From Halopseudomonas phragmitis (GTDB lineage: Bacteria; Pseudomonadota; Gammaproteobacteria; Pseudomonadales; Pseudomonadaceae): a stretch of 64,000 bases of DNA. Positions 5,737 to 25,079 of the stretch are shown here, one piece after another. Each line of letters starts with the position of its first letter. Position 1 is the stretch's first letter. Where the stretch lies: positions 2,875,501 through 2,939,500 of the forward strand of contig NZ_CP020100.1 of assembly GCF_002056295.1 (NCBI RefSeq). Direction: 5' to 3'. Under the pieces are notes generated by a model. It had not been told where the DNA came from. It ran no database searches and saw nothing but the letters and a program-made list of their open reading frames with translations. Both the position numbers and the translations under genes were made by a program.

Positions 5737-8130
5737 TTGAAGGATACCCAAGCACAGAAAGCCCCGATTGCCTGGCGTGAGCAGTTGAGTCTGCGCCTGC
5801 GTGAGGGCGCCCTGTTGGCGATGATTGCACTGTGTCTGTACTTGTTCATGGCGCTGTCCACTTACCATACAGCTGACCCGGGCTGGACCCGCAGCGGTGA
5901 TGTTGTGGATGTGCACAACGCCGGTGGGCGGATGGGCGCCTGGATCGCCGATGTGCTGCTGCTGGTACTCGGGTACCTGGCTTATCTGTTTCCGGTGATT
6001 GTTGCGGTCAAGGTCTGGCAGATGTTCCGTCGCCGCCATCAGCCGCTGGTCTGGAATGGTTGGCTGTTTTCCTGGAGGCTGATCGGTTTTGTGCTGACGC
6101 TGCTGGCCGGTACGGCCCTGGCGGCTCTGCATGGTGGTGTGCCTGCTGGTTTTCCAGAAGGTGCCGGGGCGGGCGGGGTGCTGGGTCAACTGCTGCGCGA
6201 GATCAGTTATCCGGTGCTGAACATGCAAGGCAGCACCTTGCTGTTTCTGACGTTGTTCCTGTTCGGCATCACGGTTTTCACCAATCTGTCCTGGTTCAAG
6301 GTTATGGACCTGACCGGGCGCATTACCCTGGATCTGCTCGATCTGCTCAAGCGTGCCTGGCTCAACTGGCGGGCGCGCAAGGCTGACCAGCGCCTGGCTG
6401 AAGGCGAGCCGGTGCGCAGTGCGCCGCGCCGTGAGCCGGCGGTGTCGGCTGAGGAGCAAAAGCGCGCCGAACAGGCTCGTTCGCAGCGTCAGGAAGCGTT
6501 GGCCAAGCATGTGGCCGCCCAGGAGCATCGCCAGCCGCCGCAGATTGTGCCGCCGGACCCGAAACCGGCGCAGGCCAGTGTGCGGTTGCAGAAGGAGAAG
6601 CAGTCCAAGCTGTTCGATGCGGTTGAGCCCGGCTCGTTGCCGCCGATTTCGTTGCTGGACCCGGCCAGCAAGAAGACCAAGGGCTTTTCCCCCGAGTCGC
6701 TGGAAGGCATGTCGCGGCTGCTGGAACTCAAGCTCAAGGATTTCGGGGTCGAAGCCGAGGTCGAAAAGGTTCAGCCTGGTCCGGTCATTACCCGTTTTGA
6801 AATTCAGCCTGCGCCTGGGGTCAAGGTCAGCAAAATTTCCAATCTGGCCAAGGATCTGGCGCGCTCGCTGGCGGTCATAAGTGTACGGGTGGTTGAAGTG
6901 ATTCCCGGCAAGACCACGGTGGGCATCGAGATTCCCAACGAAGACCGTGAAATCGTGCGGTTGTCCGAGGTGTTGGAGACCCGTGAATTCGACGAGGCGC
7001 AGTCGCCGGTTACCCTGGCGCTGGGCCACGATATTGGCGGCCACCCGGTGATGGCTGACCTGGCCAAGATGCCGCACTTGCTGGTGGCCGGTACCACGGG
7101 CTCGGGTAAGTCGGTTGGGGTCAACGCCATGCTGCTGTCGATCCTGTTCAAGGCCGGCCCGGATGAAGTGCGGCTGATCATGATCGACCCGAAGATGCTT
7201 GAACTGTCGATCTACGAGGGTATCCCGCATCTATTGGCGCCGGTGGTGACCGACATGAAAGAAGCAGCCAATGCGCTGCGTTGGTGCGTGGCCGAGATGG
7301 AGCGCCGCTACAAGCTGATGGCGGCCATGGGGGTGCGTAACCTGGCTGGCTTCAACCGCAAGGTCAAGGATGCCCAGAAGGCCGGCACGCCGCTGACCGA
7401 CCCGCTGTACCGGCGCGAGTCGATGGAAGATGAGCCGCCCTTGCTGGAAAGCCTGCCGATCATCGTGGTGGTGATCGACGAGTTCGCTGACATGATGATG
7501 ATCGTCGGCAAGAAGGTCGAAGAGCTGATCGCGCGGATCGCCCAGAAGGCCCGGGCGGCTGGCATCCACCTGATTCTGGCGACCCAGCGGCCATCGGTGG
7601 ACGTGATCACCGGTCTGATCAAGGCCAATATCCCGACCCGGATGGCGTTCCAGGTGTCGAGCAAGATCGATTCGCGCACCATTCTCGATCAGGGTGGTGC
7701 CGAGCAGTTGCTGGGGCATGGTGACATGCTGTTCATGCCGCCGGGCACCAGCCTGCCGGTGCGTGTGCATGGCGCCTTTGTTTCCGACGATGAAGTGCAC
7801 CGGCTGGTGGATGAGTGGAAGCAGCGCGGCGAGCCTGACTACATACAGGATATCGTCGACGGTGTGGATGACGGCGGTGGCGGCAGCTACGAGAGTGGCG
7901 GCTCCGGTGGTGGCGGTGATGACCTGGAAGACGATCCGCTTTACGACCAGGCCGTGCAGTTCGTCACCGAGAGTCGCCGGGCTTCGATTTCGGCCGTGCA
8001 GCGCAAGCTGAAAATCGGTTATAACCGCGCCGCGAGAATGATCGAGGCCATGGAAATGGCTGGCGTGGTGACACCCATGAATACCAACGGCTCGCGCGAG
8101 GTGATCGCGCCAGCCCCCTTACGTGATTAA
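5737..8130 (+). CDS. ftsK: DNA translocase FtsK
   Basis: A 797-residue divisome protein that pumps chromosomal DNA toward dif and activates XerCD. The N-terminus carries about four membrane helices (residues 25-190). A charged linker to about residue 290 precedes the RecA-like motor, with Walker A GTTGSGKS near 455 and Walker [13 protein letters not shown] near 578. A glycine-rich tether (about 705-730) leads to the winged-helix gamma domain, [11 protein letters not shown] to the end, which reads KOPS sites. The start is TTG at 5737 with GGAAG about 10 nt upstream; no ATG in frame fits better. It is the first gene of a plus-strand run with lolA and rarA. Confidence 0.97.
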
Positions 8131-16299: not shown

Positions 16300-16983
16300 A
16301 TGCGCGCCCATTATCTCCAACACGCACCCTTTGAAGGATTGGGGCGGCTTGAGCCGGCTCTGCTTGCCCGGGGCTATCAGATTAGCGTTACCCGGCTGTT
16401 TGCCAATGAGAGCCTGCCGGCATTGGCCGATATCGATCTGCTGATCGTGATGGGCGGGCCAATGAGCGTCAATGATGAGGCCCAGTTTCCCTGGCTGGTC
16501 GCCGAAAAGGCCTTTATTGCCGGGGCGATAGCCGCAGGCCTGCCGGTCCTGGGAATTTGCCTGGGCGCTCAGTTGATTGCCTGTAGTCAGGGGGCCAGGG
16601 TGTACCCCAATCATCTGCGGGAAATTGGCTGGTTTCCGGTCCAGGCTGTTGGGGCCGGAGCCGAGAACTGGCAGTTTCCGGCGCAGGTACTGGTGTTGCA
16701 CTGGCATGGTGAGACCTTTGACTTGCCACCTGGTGCAGTGCATCTGGCCCGCAGCCCGGGTTGCGAGCACCAGGCATTCCAGTTGGGGCGCAATGTGATT
16801 GGCTTGCAGTTCCACCCCGAAGCCACGCCGGAGCTGTTGCGCGAGTTCGTCGAGCAGGCCGAGGATGACCTGACGGCTGATCAGTATGTGCAGCCGGCCG
16901 AGCGCATTCTGGCTGTCAGTACCGAGCAATTGGCCCAGACCGGCGCCTTGCTGGAAAATCTGCTCGACTATCTTCTGGCGTAG
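16300..16983 (+). CDS. Class I glutamine amidotransferase (GMP synthase-like)
   Basis: A stand-alone 227-residue glutaminase-type domain. The nucleophile Cys87 is in GICLGAQL, and the His172/Glu174 dyad is in QFHPEATPE. The oxyanion-loop region MGGPMSVNDE is also present. It resembles the glutaminase half of GuaA but has no synthetase domain, as in YfeJ/YcjG-like proteins whose acceptors are unknown. The ATG at 16300 is chosen because AGGAGG lies 4 nt upstream; a TTG at 16285 would add five residues. A 7-bp hairpin (16983-17000) begins at the stop codon. Confidence 0.85.
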   Translation: MRAHYLQHAPFEGLGRLEPALLARGYQISVTRLFANESLPALADIDLLIVMGGPMSVNDEAQFPWLVAEKAFIAGAIAAGLPVLGICLGAQLIACSQGARVYPNHLREIGWFPVQAVGAGAENWQFPAQVLVLHWHGETFDLPPGAVHLARSPGCEHQAFQLGRNVIGLQFHPEATPELLREFVEQAEDDLTADQYVQPAERILAVSTEQLAQTGALLENLLDYLLA

Positions 16984-17211
16984 CTCGTCCACTGACGAGC
17001 ACGGCCAAGGCTGTGCCGGTATCTATGCTTTGTCCGAGTATTCACTCTGGAATGGGGCTTTGGGAGGAGTTTGCGGGTCATTGGTTTGACCTATTTGTGG
17101 AGTTCTGGCTGAATTCGGCACGATCAATACGACCTTTGTCTATATTGAACTGGTGGGGCAGGTCTTTGAAGCTTGCGAGTTCATAACTAAACCAATAAGC
17201 AGGAGCCTTGC

Positions 17212-18891
17212 ATGAGTGCCATGATCGTGATGTTCGCGGGTCTGGCCATGATGGCGCTGGGGTATTTCATTTACTCCAAGTTCATCGCGGAAAAGATCTA
17301 TCGCCTCGATCCCGATTTCAAAACACCCGCCCATGAATACGAAGATGGCGTCGATTTTGTTCCGACCAACAAATTCGTGCTCTGGGGTCACCATTTTACT
17401 TCGGTAGCTGGTGCGGCGCCGATTGTCGGCCCGGCGATCGCGGTGATCTGGGGCTGGGGGCCGGCGTTTGCCTGGGTCGTTCTTGGTACTATCTTCTTTG
17501 CCGGTGTGCACGATACCGGGGCGATCTGGGCCAGCGTGCGCAATAAGGCCAAGTCGGTCGGCGCCTTGACCGGCGATGTGGTCGGCAAGCGGGCTCGCAG
17601 CATTTTCATGATCGTGATCTTCCTCGTGCTGCTGATGGTCAATGCGGTGTTCGCGGTGGTTATCGCGCGTTTGATGATGAGCTTTCCGACGGCGGTGGTG
17701 CCGGTCTGGGGGGCGATCTTCGTTGCCTTGATCATCGGTCAGGTGATCTATCGGCGGATTCTCAGCCTGCCGGTGGTCTCAATCCTCGGGGTGATTGCCC
17801 TGTACGCGCTGATCTGGGCAGGCCCTTCCATGCCGCTGCAAATGCCGGCTGAAGTGCTGCCGGGCGTGTCCGGCAACGCTACCTGGATCCTGCTGTTGTT
17901 CGTCTATGCCGCGATTGCTTCGGTACTGCCGGTCTGGGTACTGCTGCAGCCGCGTGACTATATCAACGGCCTGCAACTGTTCGTCGGTCTGTTCGTGCTG
18001 TATGGCGCGGTGGTGATGCTGAATCCGACCATGGTCGCGCCGATGTTCAACAGCGATGTACCGCCGGGAACGCCTTCGCTGGTTCCCTTGCTGTTTGTGA
18101 CCATCGCCTGTGGTGCGATTTCTGGCTTCCATGGTCTGGTGTCCTCGGGTACTACCTCCAAGCAGCTCAATCGTGAGCCTGACGCCCGGTTTGTCGGTTA
18201 CTTCGGTGCCATGGGCGAAGGCGGTCTGGCGCTGGCCGCGATTCTGGTCGCCACTGCCGGCTTTGCCAGCCTGGCTGATTGGCAAGCCATGTACCATGCC
18301 TTCGGCCAGGGCGGTGTAACTGCCTTCGTACAGGGCGGTGCCTACATCATTCACCATGGTTTGGGTATGCCGGAAGTTACCGCAGCAACCTTGCTGACCG
18401 TAATGGCTGCGCTGTTTGCCGGTACCACTATGGATACCGGCCTGCGTCTGCAGCGCTACATCTTCCAGGAGTGGGGTGAAATCTATAAGCAGGAATGGAT
18501 GAAGAAGCCGCTGCCGGCAACTCTGCTGGCCGTAGGTTCCTGTCTGTTGCTGGCCTTTGGTGCCGGTGGTGCCGATGGTTCAGGCGGCATGATCATCTGG
18601 CCGCTGTTCGGTACTACCAACCAGTTGCTGGCGGGCCTGACTCTGCTGGTGATCACTGTCATGCTGGTTCACCTGCGCCGGCCCATGTGGTTTACCCTGG
18701 TACCGCTGTGCTTCCTGCTGGTGATGACCGTGACGGCGCTGCTGTTCCAGTTGCGCACCTTCTACGAGCAGGGCAACTACTTCCTGCTGGGGCTGGATAT
18801 CGTGGTGCTGATTGCCGCGATACTGGTGGCACTGGAATGTGCCGCGGCGCTCAAACGTCATCGCGCTGCGGTGGCCAGCGAGTCTCAGTAG
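17212..18891 (+). CDS. CstA-family carbon starvation / peptide-pyruvate carrier, short form
   Basis: A 559-residue polytopic membrane protein with about 14 hydrophobic segments. CstA-family landmarks are GHHFTSVAGAAPIVGPAIAV near residues 62-80, GVHDTGAIWASVRNKAKSVG, LQPRDYINGLQLFVG, ISGFHGLVSSGTTSKQL and LFGTTNQLLAGLTL. E. coli CstA and BtsT are near 700 residues, so this is the short branch. Family members take up pyruvate or peptides, but the substrate here is unknown. A small CC-ending protein starts 1 nt after the stop and an ArsA-like ATPase follows, so the three genes look like one operon. The ATG at 17212 has AGGAG about 10 nt upstream. Confidence 0.92.
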   Translation: MSAMIVMFAGLAMMALGYFIYSKFIAEKIYRLDPDFKTPAHEYEDGVDFVPTNKFVLWGHHFTSVAGAAPIVGPAIAVIWGWGPAFAWVVLGTIFFAGVHDTGAIWASVRNKAKSVGALTGDVVGKRARSIFMIVIFLVLLMVNAVFAVVIARLMMSFPTAVVPVWGAIFVALIIGQVIYRRILSLPVVSILGVIALYALIWAGPSMPLQMPAEVLPGVSGNATWILLLFVYAAIASVLPVWVLLQPRDYINGLQLFVGLFVLYGAVVMLNPTMVAPMFNSDVPPGTPSLVPLLFVTIACGAISGFHGLVSSGTTSKQLNREPDARFVGYFGAMGEGGLALAAILVATAGFASLADWQAMYHAFGQGGVTAFVQGGAYIIHHGLGMPEVTAATLLTVMAALFAGTTMDTGLRLQRYIFQEWGEIYKQEWMKKPLPATLLAVGSCLLLAFGAGGADGSGGMIIWPLFGTTNQLLAGLTLLVITVMLVHLRRPMWFTLVPLCFLLVMTVTALLFQLRTFYEQGNYFLLGLDIVVLIAAILVALECAAALKRHRAAVASESQ

Positions 18892-18892
18892 C

Positions 18893-19177
18893 ATGAAGGC
18901 TTCCAAGCCTCCGAAAGATATGCGGGCCTGGCTCAGCCAGGCCCGCTTCTTTGCTGAAGAGGTCTACAGCTCACGCTATCGGGGTGCCATAGCCCGGGCC
19001 CGGCGCGATGAGGATGACCTGTTCATGTTGCTGGTGTTCTCTGAATTGATGGGCGTGCCGAATCCCGCTTCGTATTACACCCTAGAGTTGCAACCACTGC
19101 TGCTCGAGCGCTTCCATGACTGGCATCGACGGATGGGGATGGAACATTCGCCGCTGGATCATTTTCGTTGTTGCTGA
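18893..19177 (+). CDS. Small CC-terminal protein (cory-CC-star family-like)
   Basis: A 94-residue soluble, strongly charged protein whose last residues are HFRCC, so two cysteines end the chain. Near residue 27 it has SSRYRG, an Arg-Tyr core. Both features fit the NCBI family I remember as cory-CC-star, which is of unknown function. It starts 1 nt after the cstA stop with no strong ribosome site, implying translational coupling. The ArsA-like gene starts 24 nt after it. The terminal Cys pair could bind a metal, form a mixed disulfide or be lipidated; nothing in the sequence decides between these. There is no signal peptide or membrane helix. Confidence 0.75.
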   Translation: MKASKPPKDMRAWLSQARFFAEEVYSSRYRGAIARARRDEDDLFMLLVFSELMGVPNPASYYTLELQPLLLERFHDWHRRMGMEHSPLDHFRCC

Positions 19178-19201
19178 GCCGCATACGGCAGGGATATTCG
19201 C

Positions 19202-20209
19202 ATGTTCGATTTGCTAGACCGACGCTTGGTCTGGGTTGGTGGAAAGGGTGGGGTGGGCAAGACCACCGTATCTTCAGCTCTGGCGGTGTTGGCCGCCTCC
19301 CGGGGTAAACGTTGCCTGGTGGTGTCGACCGACCCGGCGCACAGCCTGGGGGATGCCCTGGGCCGTGAGCTGGACGACAGTGCTACCCGGGTGTTGCCTA
19401 ATCTGGATGCCATTGAGATTGATCCTGATGCCGAGGTGGACAGCCATCTCAAGCGGGTGCTGGGGCAGATGCGCCGCTTTGCTTCCTCAACCATGATGCC
19501 GGAGCTGGAGCGGCAGATGCAGTTGACCCGCCAGTCGCCCGGTACTCAGGAAGCAGCTTTGTTGGAACGGATCGCCCGGTTGATCAATGATCGGGAGTCT
19601 GAGTATGACCTGATCATCTTCGATACCGCTCCGACCGGACACACCCTGCGGCTGCTGACCTTGCCGGAGGCCATGGCGGCCTGGACCGATGGTCTGCTGG
19701 CACACAATCGCAAATCCCAGGAGTTGGGCAAGGTGCTCAAGCATCTGACGCCGAAAAGCGGCCGGGATATGCCAACCCCGTTCGATGATCCGGACAAGGA
19801 CCAGTTCAGTGATCTGGATGAGCGCACCCGTGAGGTGGCGCAGACCCTGATCAACCGGCGACGGCTGTTCCATCAGGCCCGGCGTCATCTGGAAGATCCG
19901 AAGGAAAGTGGCTTTCTGTTCGTGCTTACGCCCGAGCGGTTGCCGATTCTGGAAACCGTTCGAGCGGTGGCGACGCTTGAATCCGTAGGTATTCCGGTGG
20001 TGGCGACCTTGGTCAACCGGGTGATTCCCGAAGATGCCGATGGCGAGTTTCTGCGCCGTCGGCGGGAGCAGGAAGCGACCTATCTGGAGCGGATCGATCA
20101 GGAACTGGCCCGCTTGCCTCGGCCGCGCCTGCCCTGGATGGAGACCGACGTGCAGGGGTTGGAGGCTTTGCAGGAGGTGGCCGGGCAATTAGAACGCCTG
20201 GGGTTTTAG
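19202..20209 (+). CDS. ArsA/GET3-family ATPase
   Basis: A 335-residue single-domain P-loop ATPase of the SIMIBI class. The signature P-loop GKGGVGKT spans residues 14-21, switch I is TDPAHSLGDALG (Asp44), and switch II is DTAPTGHTLRLL (141-152). ArsA has two such domains and GET3 dimers have one, so a homodimer is expected. Only one cysteine (in KRCLVV) is visible. The arsenite-binding Cys triad of ArsA and the CxxC zinc motif of GET3 are both missing, which makes arsenite export unlikely. Its place behind CstA and a CC-ending protein suggests that it energises or assembles that carrier, an inference by analogy with ArsA-ArsB. It ends 5 nt before the converging TetR gene. Confidence 0.88.
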   Translation: MFDLLDRRLVWVGGKGGVGKTTVSSALAVLAASRGKRCLVVSTDPAHSLGDALGRELDDSATRVLPNLDAIEIDPDAEVDSHLKRVLGQMRRFASSTMMPELERQMQLTRQSPGTQEAALLERIARLINDRESEYDLIIFDTAPTGHTLRLLTLPEAMAAWTDGLLAHNRKSQELGKVLKHLTPKSGRDMPTPFDDPDKDQFSDLDERTREVAQTLINRRRLFHQARRHLEDPKESGFLFVLTPERLPILETVRAVATLESVGIPVVATLVNRVIPEDADGEFLRRRREQEATYLERIDQELARLPRPRLPWMETDVQGLEALQEVAGQLERLGF

Positions 20210-20214
20210 GTTCC

Positions 20215-20880
20215 TTAGCTACGTGAGTGAGCGCGCAATAGCAGATCTACCCCGCGTTCGACCCGGCGCCGGCGTGCGGCACTGTCCGGCACGTCGCAGC
20301 CATTCATCATCAGCCCGGTAATCAACGAACCTTTCCACAGGCCGATCAGTTGTTCGGCACTTTCAACGGGGTCATCAAGCTGGATCTGCCCACGGGCCGC
20401 TGCGGTTTCCAGATACTGTGCCGCACGCAGGACAAAGGCCCAGGGACCGTCTCGGTAGATCATGCGACCGTGTTCGCCATGTCGTGCACCATGGGCAATG
20501 ATCGAGCGCATGATTTTGATGCCCCGTTCACTAGTCAGAAAATCCAGCAGGTGCTCGCCCAGAGCGACCAACTGCGTGCGCAGGTCATCCAGTGAACCGT
20601 TGTGTTCGGGCAGGTGCCCGACCATGGTCTGGTGATGGCGTTCCAGCACTGCCTGCAACAGCGCTTCGGCATTGTCGAAATAACGGTAGAGCGTGCCCTT
20701 GGCCACACCGGCGCGGCGCGCCACCGACTCCATGCCAAATTGCGGATCACCCTCGGCAATGCTTTCCAGCGCCGCTTCAAGGATGTCATCCAACTTGCGT
20801 GGATCTACTGGGCGACCGGGTCCATTGCCACTGGATCGTTTACCGGAAAGCTTGCTGGCTGGGGCCATATTGTTATCCAT
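20215..20880 (-). CDS. TetR-family repressor of the adjacent RND efflux genes
   Basis: A 221-residue regulator. The N-terminal helix-turn-helix (about 45-70) reads ESVARRAGVAKGTLYRYFDN, a classic TetR motif; the rest is the helical ligand domain. A basic, disordered-looking N-terminal extension of about 25 residues precedes it. It is divergent from the RND membrane fusion protein, with 93 nt between them. It therefore probably represses the pump and itself and is released by a pump substrate. No clear operator palindrome stands out in the gap beyond a loose AGTAA/TTACT pair (20888-20915). Confidence 0.92.
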   Translation of the reverse strand: MDNNMAPASKLSGKRSSGNGPGRPVDPRKLDDILEAALESIAEGDPQFGMESVARRAGVAKGTLYRYFDNAEALLQAVLERHHQTMVGHLPEHNGSLDDLRTQLVALGEHLLDFLTSERGIKIMRSIIAHGARHGEHGRMIYRDGPWAFVLRAAQYLETAAARGQIQLDDPVESAEQLIGLWKGSLITGLMMNGCDVPDSAARRRRVERGVDLLLRAHSRS

Positions 20881-20973
20881 CTATGCGAGTAATGCTCCGG
20901 TCATGCTATTTACTGCACGGCACCGTTCTGTAATTATCGGCCTGACTAAAGCCAACAACAAGGTTAACAGGCT

Positions 20974-22029
20974 ATGCGTATTTTCGTCCCGGTTATGGGC
21001 TTGGTTTTGCTGGCTGGTTGCGGTTCTGATGCGGCAGCGCCGCCAACTCAACAGGTAGTCAAAGTCCGAGCAGTCGAGGTGCAGGCGGGTGCGGAGCGGC
21101 ACTGGACGTTGAACGGTACGGTACAAGCCCGGCATCAGGCCAGCCTGGCATTCCGTCTGCCTGGCGAAATCAGTGAGCGGCTGGTGCAGGCTGGCGAGCG
21201 GGTTGAGGCTGGCGATGTGTTGTTGCGACTGGACCCAAGGGACATTCGCCAGCAACTCAATGCGGCCCAGGCGGCTTTGAGCGCGGCCAGGGCTCAGGCT
21301 GATAACGCCGAGGCCAATCGGCGCCGGCTGGAAACCCTGCGTGAACAGCATCTGGTGCCATTGCAGGTGTACGAGGATGCTGCCGCCAGTGCCCGGGCTG
21401 CGCGTGAAGCCATGCGCAGCGCCGAAGCGGCACTTGAGCAGGCCCGCAGTGCTCGGGATTATGCCGAGTTGCGAGCGCCGGCCAGTGGCATTCTGGTTGA
21501 GGTCAGTGGCCAGGTCGGGCAGGTGGTGGCGGCCGGGCAGAGTGTGGCTCAACTGGCCTATGACGGGCTCCGCGAGGTCGAGGCATTCATTCCCGAGCTG
21601 CGTCGGCGCAGCATCCCACAGCAGGGCCGTGTAGAGCTGTTTGGCAATGGCCAACAAGCCAATGTGACACTGCGTGAAATGGCCGGTTCGGCCGATCCCC
21701 AGACCCGTAGTTGGCGGGCCCGTTTCGTGATCGAGCAGCAAGCCAGCGACTGGCCTCTGGGAAGCAGTGTAACGCTGCACCTGAATGGTCAAACCGGCAC
21801 GGACAGTGAGTTGTTGCTGAGCTTGCCTTTGGGCGCCCTGATTGATCGTGGCCAGGGGCTCGGGGTCTGGGTTATCGAAGAAGGGCGGGTACACCGACAG
21901 CCGGTCGAACTGGTTCGCACTGACACCGAGCAAGCCTACGTGCGCAGTGCTCTGGCTGCTGGAGCGCAGGTGGTGGCGCTGGGCGCGCACCTGCTCGAGG
22001 ATGGTCAGCGGGTCGAGGTGCTGCCATGA
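20974..22029 (+). CDS. RND efflux periplasmic adaptor (membrane fusion protein), lipoprotein
   Basis: A 351-residue adaptor that links an RND pump to an outer-membrane channel. The lipobox LLAGC places the lipidated Cys at residue 16. QARHQASLAFRLPGEISERLVQAGERVEAGDVLLRLD is split here as the first lipoyl half (about 48-85). A coiled-coil hairpin (90-155) and the second lipoyl half around ELRAPASGILVEV follow, then beta-barrel and membrane-proximal domains. The stop overlaps the pump start by 4 nt (ATGA). No outer-membrane factor gene lies nearby, so a shared TolC/OprM-type channel is expected. Confidence 0.93.
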   Translation: MRIFVPVMGLVLLAGCGSDAAAPPTQQVVKVRAVEVQAGAERHWTLNGTVQARHQASLAFRLPGEISERLVQAGERVEAGDVLLRLDPRDIRQQLNAAQAALSAARAQADNAEANRRRLETLREQHLVPLQVYEDAAASARAAREAMRSAEAALEQARSARDYAELRAPASGILVEVSGQVGQVVAAGQSVAQLAYDGLREVEAFIPELRRRSIPQQGRVELFGNGQQANVTLREMAGSADPQTRSWRARFVIEQQASDWPLGSSVTLHLNGQTGTDSELLLSLPLGALIDRGQGLGVWVIEEGRVHRQPVELVRTDTEQAYVRSALAAGAQVVALGAHLLEDGQRVEVLP

Positions 22030-25000
22030 GTCTTGACCCTTTGCGCTTCAACGTCTCGGCCCTGGCAGTACGCGAGCGCTCGGTCACCCTGTTTTTCCTG
22101 CTGTTGATCTCGCTGGCCGGGCTGTATGCCTTTCTGGCCCTGGGGCGCGCCGAAGATCCGAGCTTTACCGTACGCACCACGGTGGTAACTGCGGCCTGGC
22201 CGGGCGCCAGTGCGCTGCAGATGCAGCAGCAGGTGGCAGACCCGCTGGAAAAGCGCCTGCAGGAAGTGGCCTATTTCGACAAGGTGCAAACCACGGCTCG
22301 TCCCGGCCGGGTCGATATGCAGGTGACTTTTCAGGACTACACCCCCTCCAGTGCCTTGCCGCAATTGTTCTACGAAATTCGCAAGCGCATGCAGGACGAA
22401 GTGGCCAACCTGCCGCCGGGGGTTCAGGGGCCATTCGTCAATGATGACTTTTCCGATGTGTACTTTTCGCTGTATGCCCTCACAGCACCGGGCCTGCCGG
22501 CCCGGCAACTGGTGCGTGAGGCCGAGCAACTGCGCGATCAGTTCAGCCGGGTAGCCGGGGTGCAGAAAGTGCGGGTAATCGGTGAGCGCCGTGAACAGGT
22601 GTTTGTCGATGTCGATCAGCACCAACTGGCGCAAATGGGAGTTACCCTGGAGCAGATCGGCGATGCACTGGATGCCTATAACCGCTTGCTGCCGGCAGGC
22701 CTGATCGAGACAGCCGGGCCTCGTCTGTACTGGCGTCTGGATGCCGATCTGGCCGACCTTGAAGCCATTGCGGCGGTGCCGTTGCGTATCGGTGAGCGGC
22801 TGATTCGGCTGGGCGATGTCGCTGAGGTTCAGCGTGGTTACGAGGAGCCCGCGAGCTATCTGGTACGCGCCTTCGGTGAAGAGGCGTTGTTGATCGGGGT
22901 AGTAATGCAGGCTGGCGAGAATGGTCTGGAAGTGGGCCAGCGCCTGGCCGAGAAGCATCAGCAACTGGTGGCCGGTATGCCGCTGGGTATGGAGCTGCGC
23001 CAGGTCACCAACCAGCGCGAGGCCATCACCCGGGCGGTTGAGCTGTTCCAGTACAAGTTCTTGCTGGCGGTGCTGGTGGTGATGCTGGTCAGCTTTGCCA
23101 GTATCGGTTTGCGCCCGGGTCTGATTGTCGGCATTGCCGTGCCGCTGACTCTGGGCATCACCTTCATGTTGATGCTGATGCGCGGGATGAATCTGGACCG
23201 GATCACCCTGGGGGCGTTGATCATTGCTCTGGGCTTGCTGGTGGATGATGCGATCATCGCCATCGAGATGATGTTGGTGAAAATGGAGGAGGGCTGGGAC
23301 CGGGTCAAGGCCGCCGCCCATGCCTGGACGGTGACCGCCGCGCCCATGCTGTCTGGCACCCTGGTGACCATTATCGGCTTTGTGCCTATTGGTTTTGCCC
23401 GCTCCGGTGTAGGTGAGTACACCGGCAATATTTTCTGGGTATTGGCCTTTGCGCTGCTGGCCTCATGGCTGGTGGCGGTGGTGTTTACCCCGTTTCTGGG
23501 CGTGGTTCTGCTCAAGGACGTGCCCAAGTCTTCTCAGTCACACCAGGGCCAGTACCAGAGCGCCGGTTATCAGCGGTTTCGCCAACTGATCCAGAACTGT
23601 GTGCGTTACCGCAAGACGGTAGTGCTGGCCACCTTTGGTTTGTTTGTGCTGGCAGTATTGGGAATGATGGGGCCGGTACAGAAGCAATTTTTCCCCTCAT
23701 CGGACCGACCCGAAGTGCTGGTCGATATCTACATGCCCGAAGGCTCCAGCATGACCACCACCGAGGCGCTGGCACGGCGGGTTGAGGCGGTTCTGGTGGA
23801 AGACCCGGATGTACTGTCACTGTCGAGCTATATCGGTGCCGGGGCGCCGCGGTTCTTCCTGTCATTGAATCCGGAACAGGCCAACCCGGCCTTTGCCAAA
23901 CTGATTGCGATTGCCGAGGATGCTGCCGGGCGTGATCGGATCATGCAGGCTTTACGGCAACGGGTTGCCGCCGGCGAGTTTGGCGAGGCTCGGGTGCGGG
24001 TGCATCGGCTGGTATTTGGCCCGCCAGTGACCTGGCCGGTGAGTTTCAGAGTGCTTGGTCCTGACCCAATGCAACTGCGTGCCTTCGCTGCTCAGGTGCG
24101 TGAGGTGCTGCAGGCTCATCCGCATATCGTTGATGCCCACCTGGACTGGGGCGAGCGGGTACCTTCGGTGCGTCTGGATATTGACCCTGAACGCCTGCGC
24201 GCGATTGGTCTGACACCCCGTGAGCTGGCGCGCCAGCTACAGCTGCAATGGGGTGGGGTGCCGGTCACCCAACTGCGTCAGGACGTGCGCAGTGTGCAGT
24301 TGGTGCTGCGTGGCGATGGCAGTGGTCTGGGCGAACTGGCGGACCTGCCGATTCGCACGGCCGACGGGCGCAGTATCAGCCTGGCCCAGGCAGGGTTGAT
24401 TCGGCTCGACAGCGAAGACCCGGTACTCAAGCGTTACACCCGTGAACCCTATATCACCGTGCAGGCCGATGTTCAGGGTGCCCAGCCGCCGGACGTGACC
24501 TGGGCCCTGTGGCGTGATCTGGCTGAACTGCGAGCAGCCTTGCCGCCGGGCTACTACCTGGATATTGGCGGCACTGTGGAGCAATCGGCCAAGGGGCAGG
24601 AGTCGATCCGCAAGGTTCAGCCGGTGATGCTGGCGCTGATGTTGGTGGTGATCATGCTGCAGATGCGCAGCTTCTCCGGGACTTTCATGGTACTGGCAAC
24701 TGCGCCGCTGGGGGTGATCGGGGCAACGCTGGCCCTGTTGGTCGGAAATCAGCCGTTCGGGTTTGTTGCGCTGCTGGGGCTGACCGGGCTGGCTGGAATC
24801 CTGATGCGCAACACGCTGATTCTGGCCCAGCAGATCGATGACAACCTGCAAGCTGGCATGGCCCGGCATACGGCTCTGGTCGAAGCGACGGTACAGCGTA
24901 CCCGGCCGGTTCTGTTGACCGCGTTGGCGGCGGCACTGGCCTTCGTCCCCCTGACTTTCGATGCGTTCTGGGGGCCGATGGCCTATGTGCTGATCGGCGG

Positions 25001-25079
25001 AACCTTGGTCGGGACCCTGATTACCCTGTTTTTCCTGCCGGCGCTCTATGCGCTGTGGTTCCGGGTAAGGGCTACCTGA
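22026..25079 (+). CDS. RND-family efflux pump inner-membrane subunit
   Basis: A 1017-residue proton-driven transporter of the AcrB/HAE-1-like superfamily, with the usual 12 helices and two large periplasmic loops (after TM1 and TM7). TM4 carries LGLLVDDAIIAIEMM, whose paired Asp residues form the proton relay, and the GFVPIGFARSG segment follows. In the second half, LLGLTGLAGILMRNTLIL and the late RPVLLTALAAALAF match the duplicated fold. It is translationally coupled to the adaptor. The substrate cannot be read from sequence. The end overlaps the converging binding-protein gene by 8 nt. Confidence 0.95.
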   Translation: MSLDPLRFNVSALAVRERSVTLFFLLLISLAGLYAFLALGRAEDPSFTVRTTVVTAAWPGASALQMQQQVADPLEKRLQEVAYFDKVQTTARPGRVDMQVTFQDYTPSSALPQLFYEIRKRMQDEVANLPPGVQGPFVNDDFSDVYFSLYALTAPGLPARQLVREAEQLRDQFSRVAGVQKVRVIGERREQVFVDVDQHQLAQMGVTLEQIGDALDAYNRLLPAGLIETAGPRLYWRLDADLADLEAIAAVPLRIGERLIRLGDVAEVQRGYEEPASYLVRAFGEEALLIGVVMQAGENGLEVGQRLAEKHQQLVAGMPLGMELRQVTNQREAITRAVELFQYKFLLAVLVVMLVSFASIGLRPGLIVGIAVPLTLGITFMLMLMRGMNLDRITLGALIIALGLLVDDAIIAIEMMLVKMEEGWDRVKAAAHAWTVTAAPMLSGTLVTIIGFVPIGFARSGVGEYTGNIFWVLAFALLASWLVAVVFTPFLGVVLLKDVPKSSQSHQGQYQSAGYQRFRQLIQNCVRYRKTVVLATFGLFVLAVLGMMGPVQKQFFPSSDRPEVLVDIYMPEGSSMTTTEALARRVEAVLVEDPDVLSLSSYIGAGAPRFFLSLNPEQANPAFAKLIAIAEDAAGRDRIMQALRQRVAAGEFGEARVRVHRLVFGPPVTWPVSFRVLGPDPMQLRAFAAQVREVLQAHPHIVDAHLDWGERVPSVRLDIDPERLRAIGLTPRELARQLQLQWGGVPVTQLRQDVRSVQLVLRGDGSGLGELADLPIRTADGRSISLAQAGLIRLDSEDPVLKRYTREPYITVQADVQGAQPPDVTWALWRDLAELRAALPPGYYLDIGGTVEQSAKGQESIRKVQPVMLALMLVVIMLQMRSFSGTFMVLATAPLGVIGATLALLVGNQPFGFVALLGLTGLAGILMRNTLILAQQIDDNLQAGMARHTALVEATVQRTRPVLLTALAAALAFVPLTFDAFWGPMAYVLIGGTLVGTLITLFFLPALYALWFRVRAT

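Follow-up and report, generated by a model that had tools for sequence, protein, structure and literature searches.

Castillo & Saier (2010; PMC2963123) reported 26 associations of CstA carriers with ArsA-type ATPases, 24 of them with a small protein, CstX; the trees of the three proteins were congruent, and it was proposed that ArsA energises CstA and that CstX couples the two. A CstA of another kind is known from Escherichia coli, where pyruvate uptake fell to 13% of wild type in a cstA deletion and to 20% in a ybdD deletion, and where CstA and YbdD are regarded as one transporter system for constitutive pyruvate uptake (Hwang et al., PMC5847655); E. coli CstA is proton-driven according to Gasperotti et al. 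(PMC7730263). Relatives of YbdD (DUF466) with a predicted selenocysteine (Sec) as their last residue have been noted in some Campylobacterales species, with a comparison to thioredoxin reductase drawn by the authors for the predicted Cys-Sec end (PMC4607533), and the terminal-Sec family is named KCU-star by NCBI (NF033934; PMC13188914). The locus considered here, in Halopseudomonas phragmitis, encodes a short CstA, a small protein ending in Cys-Cys (hereafter the CC protein) and an ArsA/Get3-type ATPase, and lies in a 64,000-nucleotide stretch of contig NZ_CP020100.1 (positions 2,875,501 to 2,939,500), the whole of which is called the window and supplies the coordinates used below. Three literatures meet at this locus: one deals with CstA-CstX-ArsA operons, one with pyruvate uptake by CstA-YbdD and one with the DUF466 selenoprotein and its terminal Sec. 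No paper joining them was found in the literature searched.

The trio is a real, unsolved three-gene system that has been known in silico since 2010. What is new is the exact co-occurrence of its members, including pairs that are unlinked from the carrier gene, and the Cys-Cys end that the CC protein has in common with YbdD and the predicted selenoprotein relatives of the latter. The three genes of the window form a tandem with 1 nt between the cstA stop and the ATG of the CC gene (18893) and 24 nt between the CC stop and the ATG of the ATPase gene (19202); every coordinate and gap given in the first-pass annotation, made from the letters alone, proved exact. The features are as follows.

17212..18891, + strand: cstA, short-form CstA carrier, 559 aa (PF02554, 456.7 bits)
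18109..18111, + strand: codon of Cys300, within TIACGAISGFH of CstA (invariant in 132/132 aligned CstA proteins)
18893..19177, + strand: CC protein, 94 aa, largely helical but loose at its tail (cory-CC-star, the probable CstX of Castillo & Saier; NF041419, 134.9 bits; AF2 model)
19169..19174, + strand: terminal Cys-Cys codons of the CC protein (sequence; Cys-Cys end in 80/80 relatives)
19202..20209, + strand: single-domain ArsA/Get3-type ATPase, 335 aa (TIGR00345, 265.9 bits; PF02374, 249.4 bits)
19238..19264, + strand: P-loop GGKGGVGKT, ATPase residues 13-21 (sequence; each position at least 97% conserved in 86 aligned proteins)
18922..18946, + strand: perfect 25-nt palindrome (12 pairs) inside the start of the CC gene, a putative RNA hairpin

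All three products pass curated family cut-offs. The carrier exceeds that of PF02554 (27 bits) and, at 559 aa against the 701 aa encoded by the 2106 nt of E. coli cstA, it is the short form that had been claimed; the small protein exceeds that of NF041419 (80 bits, CC_star_Cory, with Cys-Cys last), the family that NCBI names cory-CC-star. The locus has the makeup of a CstA-CstX-ArsA operon, with CstA, a small partner and a single-domain ArsA in one operon and no ars genes. The operons of Castillo & Saier likewise combine CstA with a small protein (about 90 aa) and a single-domain ArsA (about 330 aa; PMC2963123), and size and gene order suggest that their CstX is NF041419. CstX was described there as having a single transmembrane segment, whereas the hydropathy of the CC protein shows no span, and the Cys-Cys end, YbdD and unlinked pairs are not mentioned in the consulted text of that paper. 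The first-pass annotation knew of no experimentally described system of this composition; no experiment on the trio was found in the open-licence literature searched, but both the composition and the inference drawn from it had been published in 2010.

The association of the three families is far stronger than chance would give, as a gene-neighbourhood survey of the kind proposed in the first-pass annotation revealed. A genome-collection scan with an alignment of six CC proteins returned at least 543 relatives, the nearest 80 of which, mostly from Halomonadaceae, Halopseudomonas and similar Gammaproteobacteria, were kept. CstA stands directly upstream of the CC gene in 79 of these 80 loci (with overlapping frames or a gap of up to 186 nt), the ATPase directly downstream in all 80 (up to 225 nt), CstA and ArsA being taken at more than 150 bits and the gaps being rough because frames were read from the first possible start codon. 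The one exception, L088, has an adjacent CC-ATPase pair with CstA elsewhere in the same genome. A long frame in L065 had suggested a CstA-CC fusion; its cstA ends at 5944 in another frame, and no fusion was seen among the 80 loci. None of 20 pattern matches in viral contigs was a relative. For archaea, Actinomycetota and Bacillota the statistics are those of the 2010 paper, and the plasmid records (L007-L009, L090-L095) are anecdotal. In one of the latter, from a Cytobacillus plasmid, cstA and the CC gene flank the gene of a 95-aa protein that is matched by neither Pfam nor NCBIfam (L009:3630-3917).

Two samples drawn irrespective of the CC protein, 200 genomes of the phylum and 194 of the order, gave the same picture, at most the best 10 or 11 candidates per genome being scored for single-domain ArsA. 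In the phylum sample the CC protein was present in three genomes and CstA in 109, and strong single-domain ArsA was found in the same three, adjoining the CC gene; the remaining strong ArsA matches were two-domain proteins (frames of 579-600 aa in seven genomes), apart from those of one genome, G184, which are pieces on two contigs. In the order sample the CC protein occurred in 20 genomes, spread over seven family codes, and single-domain ArsA in the same 20, adjacent in every case; the ArsA frames of two further genomes measure 582 and 604 aa. Short CstA was present in 24 of the 194, including all 20 with the CC protein (Fisher p, relatedness not corrected: 1e-27 for the CC protein with single-domain ArsA and 1e-23 for short CstA).

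Linkage to the carrier is looser. In six of the 20 order genomes, all of family code f93, CstA and the CC-ATPase pair are on separate contigs, and in the three of these whose flanks were read the surroundings of CstA and of the pair differ. In a quick tree of CstA (43 rows) three changes are needed to account for the separated state, and well-supported branches impose two or more of these. The pair has thus been retained together with CstA though unlinked, which argues for a functional tie acting in trans. Within the sampled genomes, the CC protein and the ATPase were never observed apart. They are the tightest unit, adjoining in 20 of 20 order genomes, the six unlinked f93 genomes included, and also in L088, which points to the CC protein as a client or partner of the ATPase. 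As read by eye, the pair in three f93 loci (L206, 2989-4247; L208, 2889-4138; L210, 2927-4188) follows, on the same strand and away from CstA, genes resembling a sodium-dependent LeuT-type transporter and RatA/RnfH.

The CC protein ends HFRCC, and Cys-Cys terminates all 80 relatives kept from the scan. It had no Pfam match at E 0.1, and a fold search returned nothing at E 0.001 (best E 4.3). The AF2 model (mean pLDDT 78, dropping to about 55 in the final block) comprises a long helix (residues 8-53), a short one (58-61), a third (66-81) and a loose tail. Its best 19-residue hydropathy window is 1.1, which indicates neither a membrane span nor a tail anchor.

A similar end accompanies CstA in a second setting. 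The gene after cstA in E. coli is ybdD, neither of them having an ATPase gene as a neighbour, and the 65-aa YbdD ends GGARCC; as in the window, then, CstA is joined by a small downstream protein ending Arg-Cys-Cys, although the E. coli CstA is of the long type (32% identical to that of the window) and its partner belongs to PF04328. The KCU-star/DUF466 proteins (NF033934) are of the YbdD type, their last residue being Cys or a predicted Sec that follows a Cys (PMC4607533); E. coli YbdD scores 70 bits with NF033934, below its cut-off of 85, and the CC protein of the window gave no match to it. PF04328 proteins were found in 38 of the 200 phylum genomes and, by recounted distances rather than the strict neighbour filter, within 395 nt of a CstA match in 35 of these, two others having the genes on different contigs and one having no CstA match. 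The strict filter recovered a Cys-Cys-ending neighbour at 18 of 30 long-CstA loci (L126-L155), some of its misses being frames that were too long (e.g. G028). Among 31 YbdD-family proteins read (that of E. coli and those of the 30 loci fetched out of 40 places), 30 end in R/K-Cys-Cys and one in Cys-Pro-Cys. The variant Cys-Pro-Cys end was seen in L113, which is of the YbdD type, and in small frames beside cstA in L142 and L202. Single-domain ArsA was found in none of the 38 YbdD genomes of the phylum sample and in one of the 13 of the order sample, G342, which also holds a CC protein. The Cys-Cys end thus accompanies CstA in both settings and the ATPase in only one, so that the work of the tail would be placed at the carrier and that of the ATPase at the CC protein.

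The PF04328 (YbdD/Sel_put) profile does not match the CC protein, which is kept out of that family; the two small proteins may be remote relatives or convergent. An alignment made by eye (G-x-P-N/D...Y...F...G...RCC) was discarded, being not significant against shuffled or reversed profiles.

For the carrier, the profile of the characterised pyruvate/proton symporter CstA (NF011590) gave 247 bits, far below the equivalog cut-off of 1188, and its substrate therefore cannot be transferred to the window CstA. The AF2 model is modest (mean pLDDT 63); most of its best structural matches are secondary carriers of the APC/LeuT fold, at a probability of 1.00, yet with TM-scores of only about 0.3-0.4. 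An alignment of 132 CstA proteins longer than 450 aa, in which 81 of the 86 members of the CC-protein group (85 loci and the window) passed, showed Cys300 to be invariant with or without partners. It is as constant in the seven short CstAs for which no nearby partner was found (7/7) as in 13 others (13/13), a mixed group most of which lack a Cys-Cys neighbour and one of which, L202, has a YbdD-type neighbour. Position 303 was tried as a partner marker and rejected: where the CC protein is present, 87 of 88 CstAs have Ile there, and the nine compared without it all have Val (9/9), but Val is also found in 26 of 31 YbdD-type CstAs. Three long CstAs (L191, L192 and L200, genera g58 and g51) that have no small Cys-Cys-ending neighbour carry a Cys at position 303, near Cys300.

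The ATPase belongs to the family of archaeal and eukaryotic Get3 (TRC40). It passes both TIGR00345 (TRC40/GET3/ArsA; cut-off 135) and PF02374 (cut-off 24.3) and has the KGGVGKT P-loop, and it falls short of TIGR04291, the arsenical pump-driving ArsA (151.9 bits against 650), having one domain in its 335 aa instead of two. Its closest solved structure by sequence is 3zq6 (E 1.9e-58), and 3zq6 and 3ug6, which we take to be archaeal Get3-type proteins, are among the three best. The CxxC of Get3, which has a zinc role, is visible in 3zq6 and 3ug6 when the sequences are aligned and is absent from all 86 aligned ATPases, that of the window included; the window-type proteins differ from Get3 in this respect and probably also in their client, which is likely not a tail-anchored protein. 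No cysteine is conserved in the 86, some of which are incomplete frames or extend too far upstream, and 73 have one cysteine or none. A zinc site in which the tail cysteines replace the CxxC at the ATPase dimer was considered and dropped, since the tail occurs in systems without this ATPase. The ArsA-ArsB(-ArsD) arsenite pump resembles the trio in combining a carrier with an ArsA-type ATPase and a small protein that bears cysteines, those of ArsD being vicinal. It differs in its carrier family and in its ATPase, that of the window being single-domain with no conserved cysteine. The window-type ATPases, poor in cysteine, are in this unlike arsenite ArsA, for which roles of cysteines are stated in PMC2963123. 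In the absence of CxxC and of any conserved cysteine from the ATPase, the parallel with ArsA-ArsB does not hold in detail.

The observations on which a model can be built are the gene order, the families, their co-occurrence, their retention together even where unlinked, and an unvarying Cys-Cys end that recurs on YbdD. Most likely, the tail does its work at the carrier, and the ATPase, rather than powering transport, services the CC protein. The fuller proposal, an ion-driven carrier with a Cys-Cys subunit that acts on it and an ATPase that services the subunit, is put forward tentatively, as possible rather than probable. Under it, the three genes would encode one uptake system. CstA would be a LeuT-fold carrier, as the model of its fold suggests, and would presumably draw on an ion gradient; its likely substrate is a small organic acid, for which pyruvate is the best guess, or a peptide. 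The CC protein would be an accessory subunit, having for short CstA the role that YbdD has for E. coli CstA; its mobile C-terminal Cys-Cys would be the working end and might touch the carrier. The ATPase, probably a Get3/ArsA-type homodimer, would handle the CC protein, either loading it onto the carrier or releasing it from there in an ATP-dependent manner, and ATP would control assembly or activity and not each transport step.

Several observations weigh against this proposal. A plasmid-borne cstA alone restored pyruvate uptake, with chromosomal ybdD possibly still present (PMC7730263). Long CstAs occur in genomes with no YbdD match (e.g. G034, G018 and G053), so a Cys-Cys partner is not universal. 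Neither partner was found in four order genomes (G248, G259, which is 86% complete, G347, which is 9% contaminated, and G360) and in G015, all of which have a short CstA 59-61% identical to that of the window, and the carrier thus appears able to do without both. Cys300 as a docking thiol specific to the tail had to be rejected, because it is invariant also where partners are lacking. Finally, homology between the CC protein and YbdD is not demonstrable: profile-profile comparison gave P values of 0.0099-0.05, shuffled profiles that retained the RCC end did as well in 23 of 150 trials (local) and 6 of 150 (global), and a reversed profile did about as well. The YbdD profile omitted L098 and L117, whose frames were misplaced though both end RCC when read, and the shuffle comparison also omitted L113.

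The main rival, which we judge doubtful, is the proposal of Castillo & Saier (2010) that the ATPase drives CstA by ATP hydrolysis, with the CC protein as the coupler, much as ArsA serves ArsB. The composition of the operon, the co-occurrence, the published tree congruence (PMC2963123) and the very name of TIGR00345, a transport-energizing ATPase, all speak for it. The proton-driven E. coli CstA (PMC7730263) has no adjoining ATPase gene, however, short CstAs about 60% identical to that of the window exist without the ATPase, the ATPase has neither the double domain of arsenite ArsA nor a conserved cysteine, and the CC-ATPase pair may sit away from CstA. The same points weaken the suggestion in the first-pass annotation that the ATPase and the CC protein energise the carrier; its other suggestion, that the CC protein is a redox or metal adaptor, is plausible, with the tail to be tied to the carrier first because it is common to YbdD partners that go with no such ATPase. 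Another reading is compatible with the tentative proposal and, as an account of its own, somewhat unlikely; in it the tail senses thiol redox or binds a soft metal and so gates the carrier, while a Get3-like chaperone ATPase protects or resets it. The unvarying Cys-Cys of the 80 relatives, the predicted Cys-Sec ends of YbdD relatives with their thioredoxin-reductase comparison (PMC4607533) and the invariance of Cys300 fit it; Cys300 is equally invariant without partners, however, so that it offers no specific docking thiol, and a metal would find no conserved cysteine on the ATPase.

That the Get3-like ATPase is a membrane-assembly factor, which targets either CstA or the CC protein to the membrane and has no role in the finished carrier, we consider quite improbable. 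Such a role would agree with the two Get3-type structures among the best matches and with an ATPase gene fixed next to that of the small protein, but the latter lacks a tail anchor or membrane span and the CxxC of those structures is missing from the family. Mere genetic neighbourhood of the three genes, with no functional tie, is scarcely tenable and is refuted as far as co-occurrence can refute it: nothing speaks for it beyond the general reservation that the genomes in the samples are relatives, against the coincidence of the families in the same 20 of 194 genomes over seven family codes and their co-retention when unlinked. A wider generalisation of the proposal, that CstAs in general work with a detachable tail, Cys-Cys or Cys-Sec, which a small partner provides and which takes part in transport or gating itself, that two small families converged on this tail or descend from it, and that in one branch an ArsA/Get3 ATPase charges, places or recycles it, is rather unlikely when taken as a whole. 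If true, it would amount to a novel mode of regulating transporters, in which an ion-driven carrier has a thiol tail that is serviced by ATP. A role of the Cys-Cys end in uptake would give a function to the predicted selenoprotein family and to an orphan branch of ArsA-like ATPases.

The operon probably consists of cstA, the CC gene and the ATPase gene alone, because the upstream frame (glutamine amidotransferase-like by eye) stops 228 nt before cstA and the gene downstream of the ATPase, TetR-like by eye, is convergent. No sigma-70-like promoter was found in 16900-20950 (shuffled sequence yields 1.5), and an Rfam search of 16800-20400 gave a single match, below the gathering score of that family. 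The host genome has one CstA (two profile segments), and a profile search of the whole genome found no YbdD-type protein (PF04328). Beside the operon, at 20215-25079, stand the TetR-like repressor and an RND-type efflux pair, again as read by eye, with no sign of a tie to the trio.

The palindrome at 18922-18946 occupies the first codons of the CC gene, and part of its pairing is imposed by the conserved protein sequence. Its third-position pairs covary among relatives; at pair 4, 60 of 69 distinct rows (L082 skipped) are paired against 48.5 expected, and none of 1000 shuffles did as well. Under a control that preserves relatedness (79 distinct rows) the helix ranks first of 79 possible centres, while its single pairs rank only 16, 118, 255 and 1784 of 3486. 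These patterns are no more than suggestive of a functional RNA hairpin, which might adjust how much CstA is made relative to its partners.

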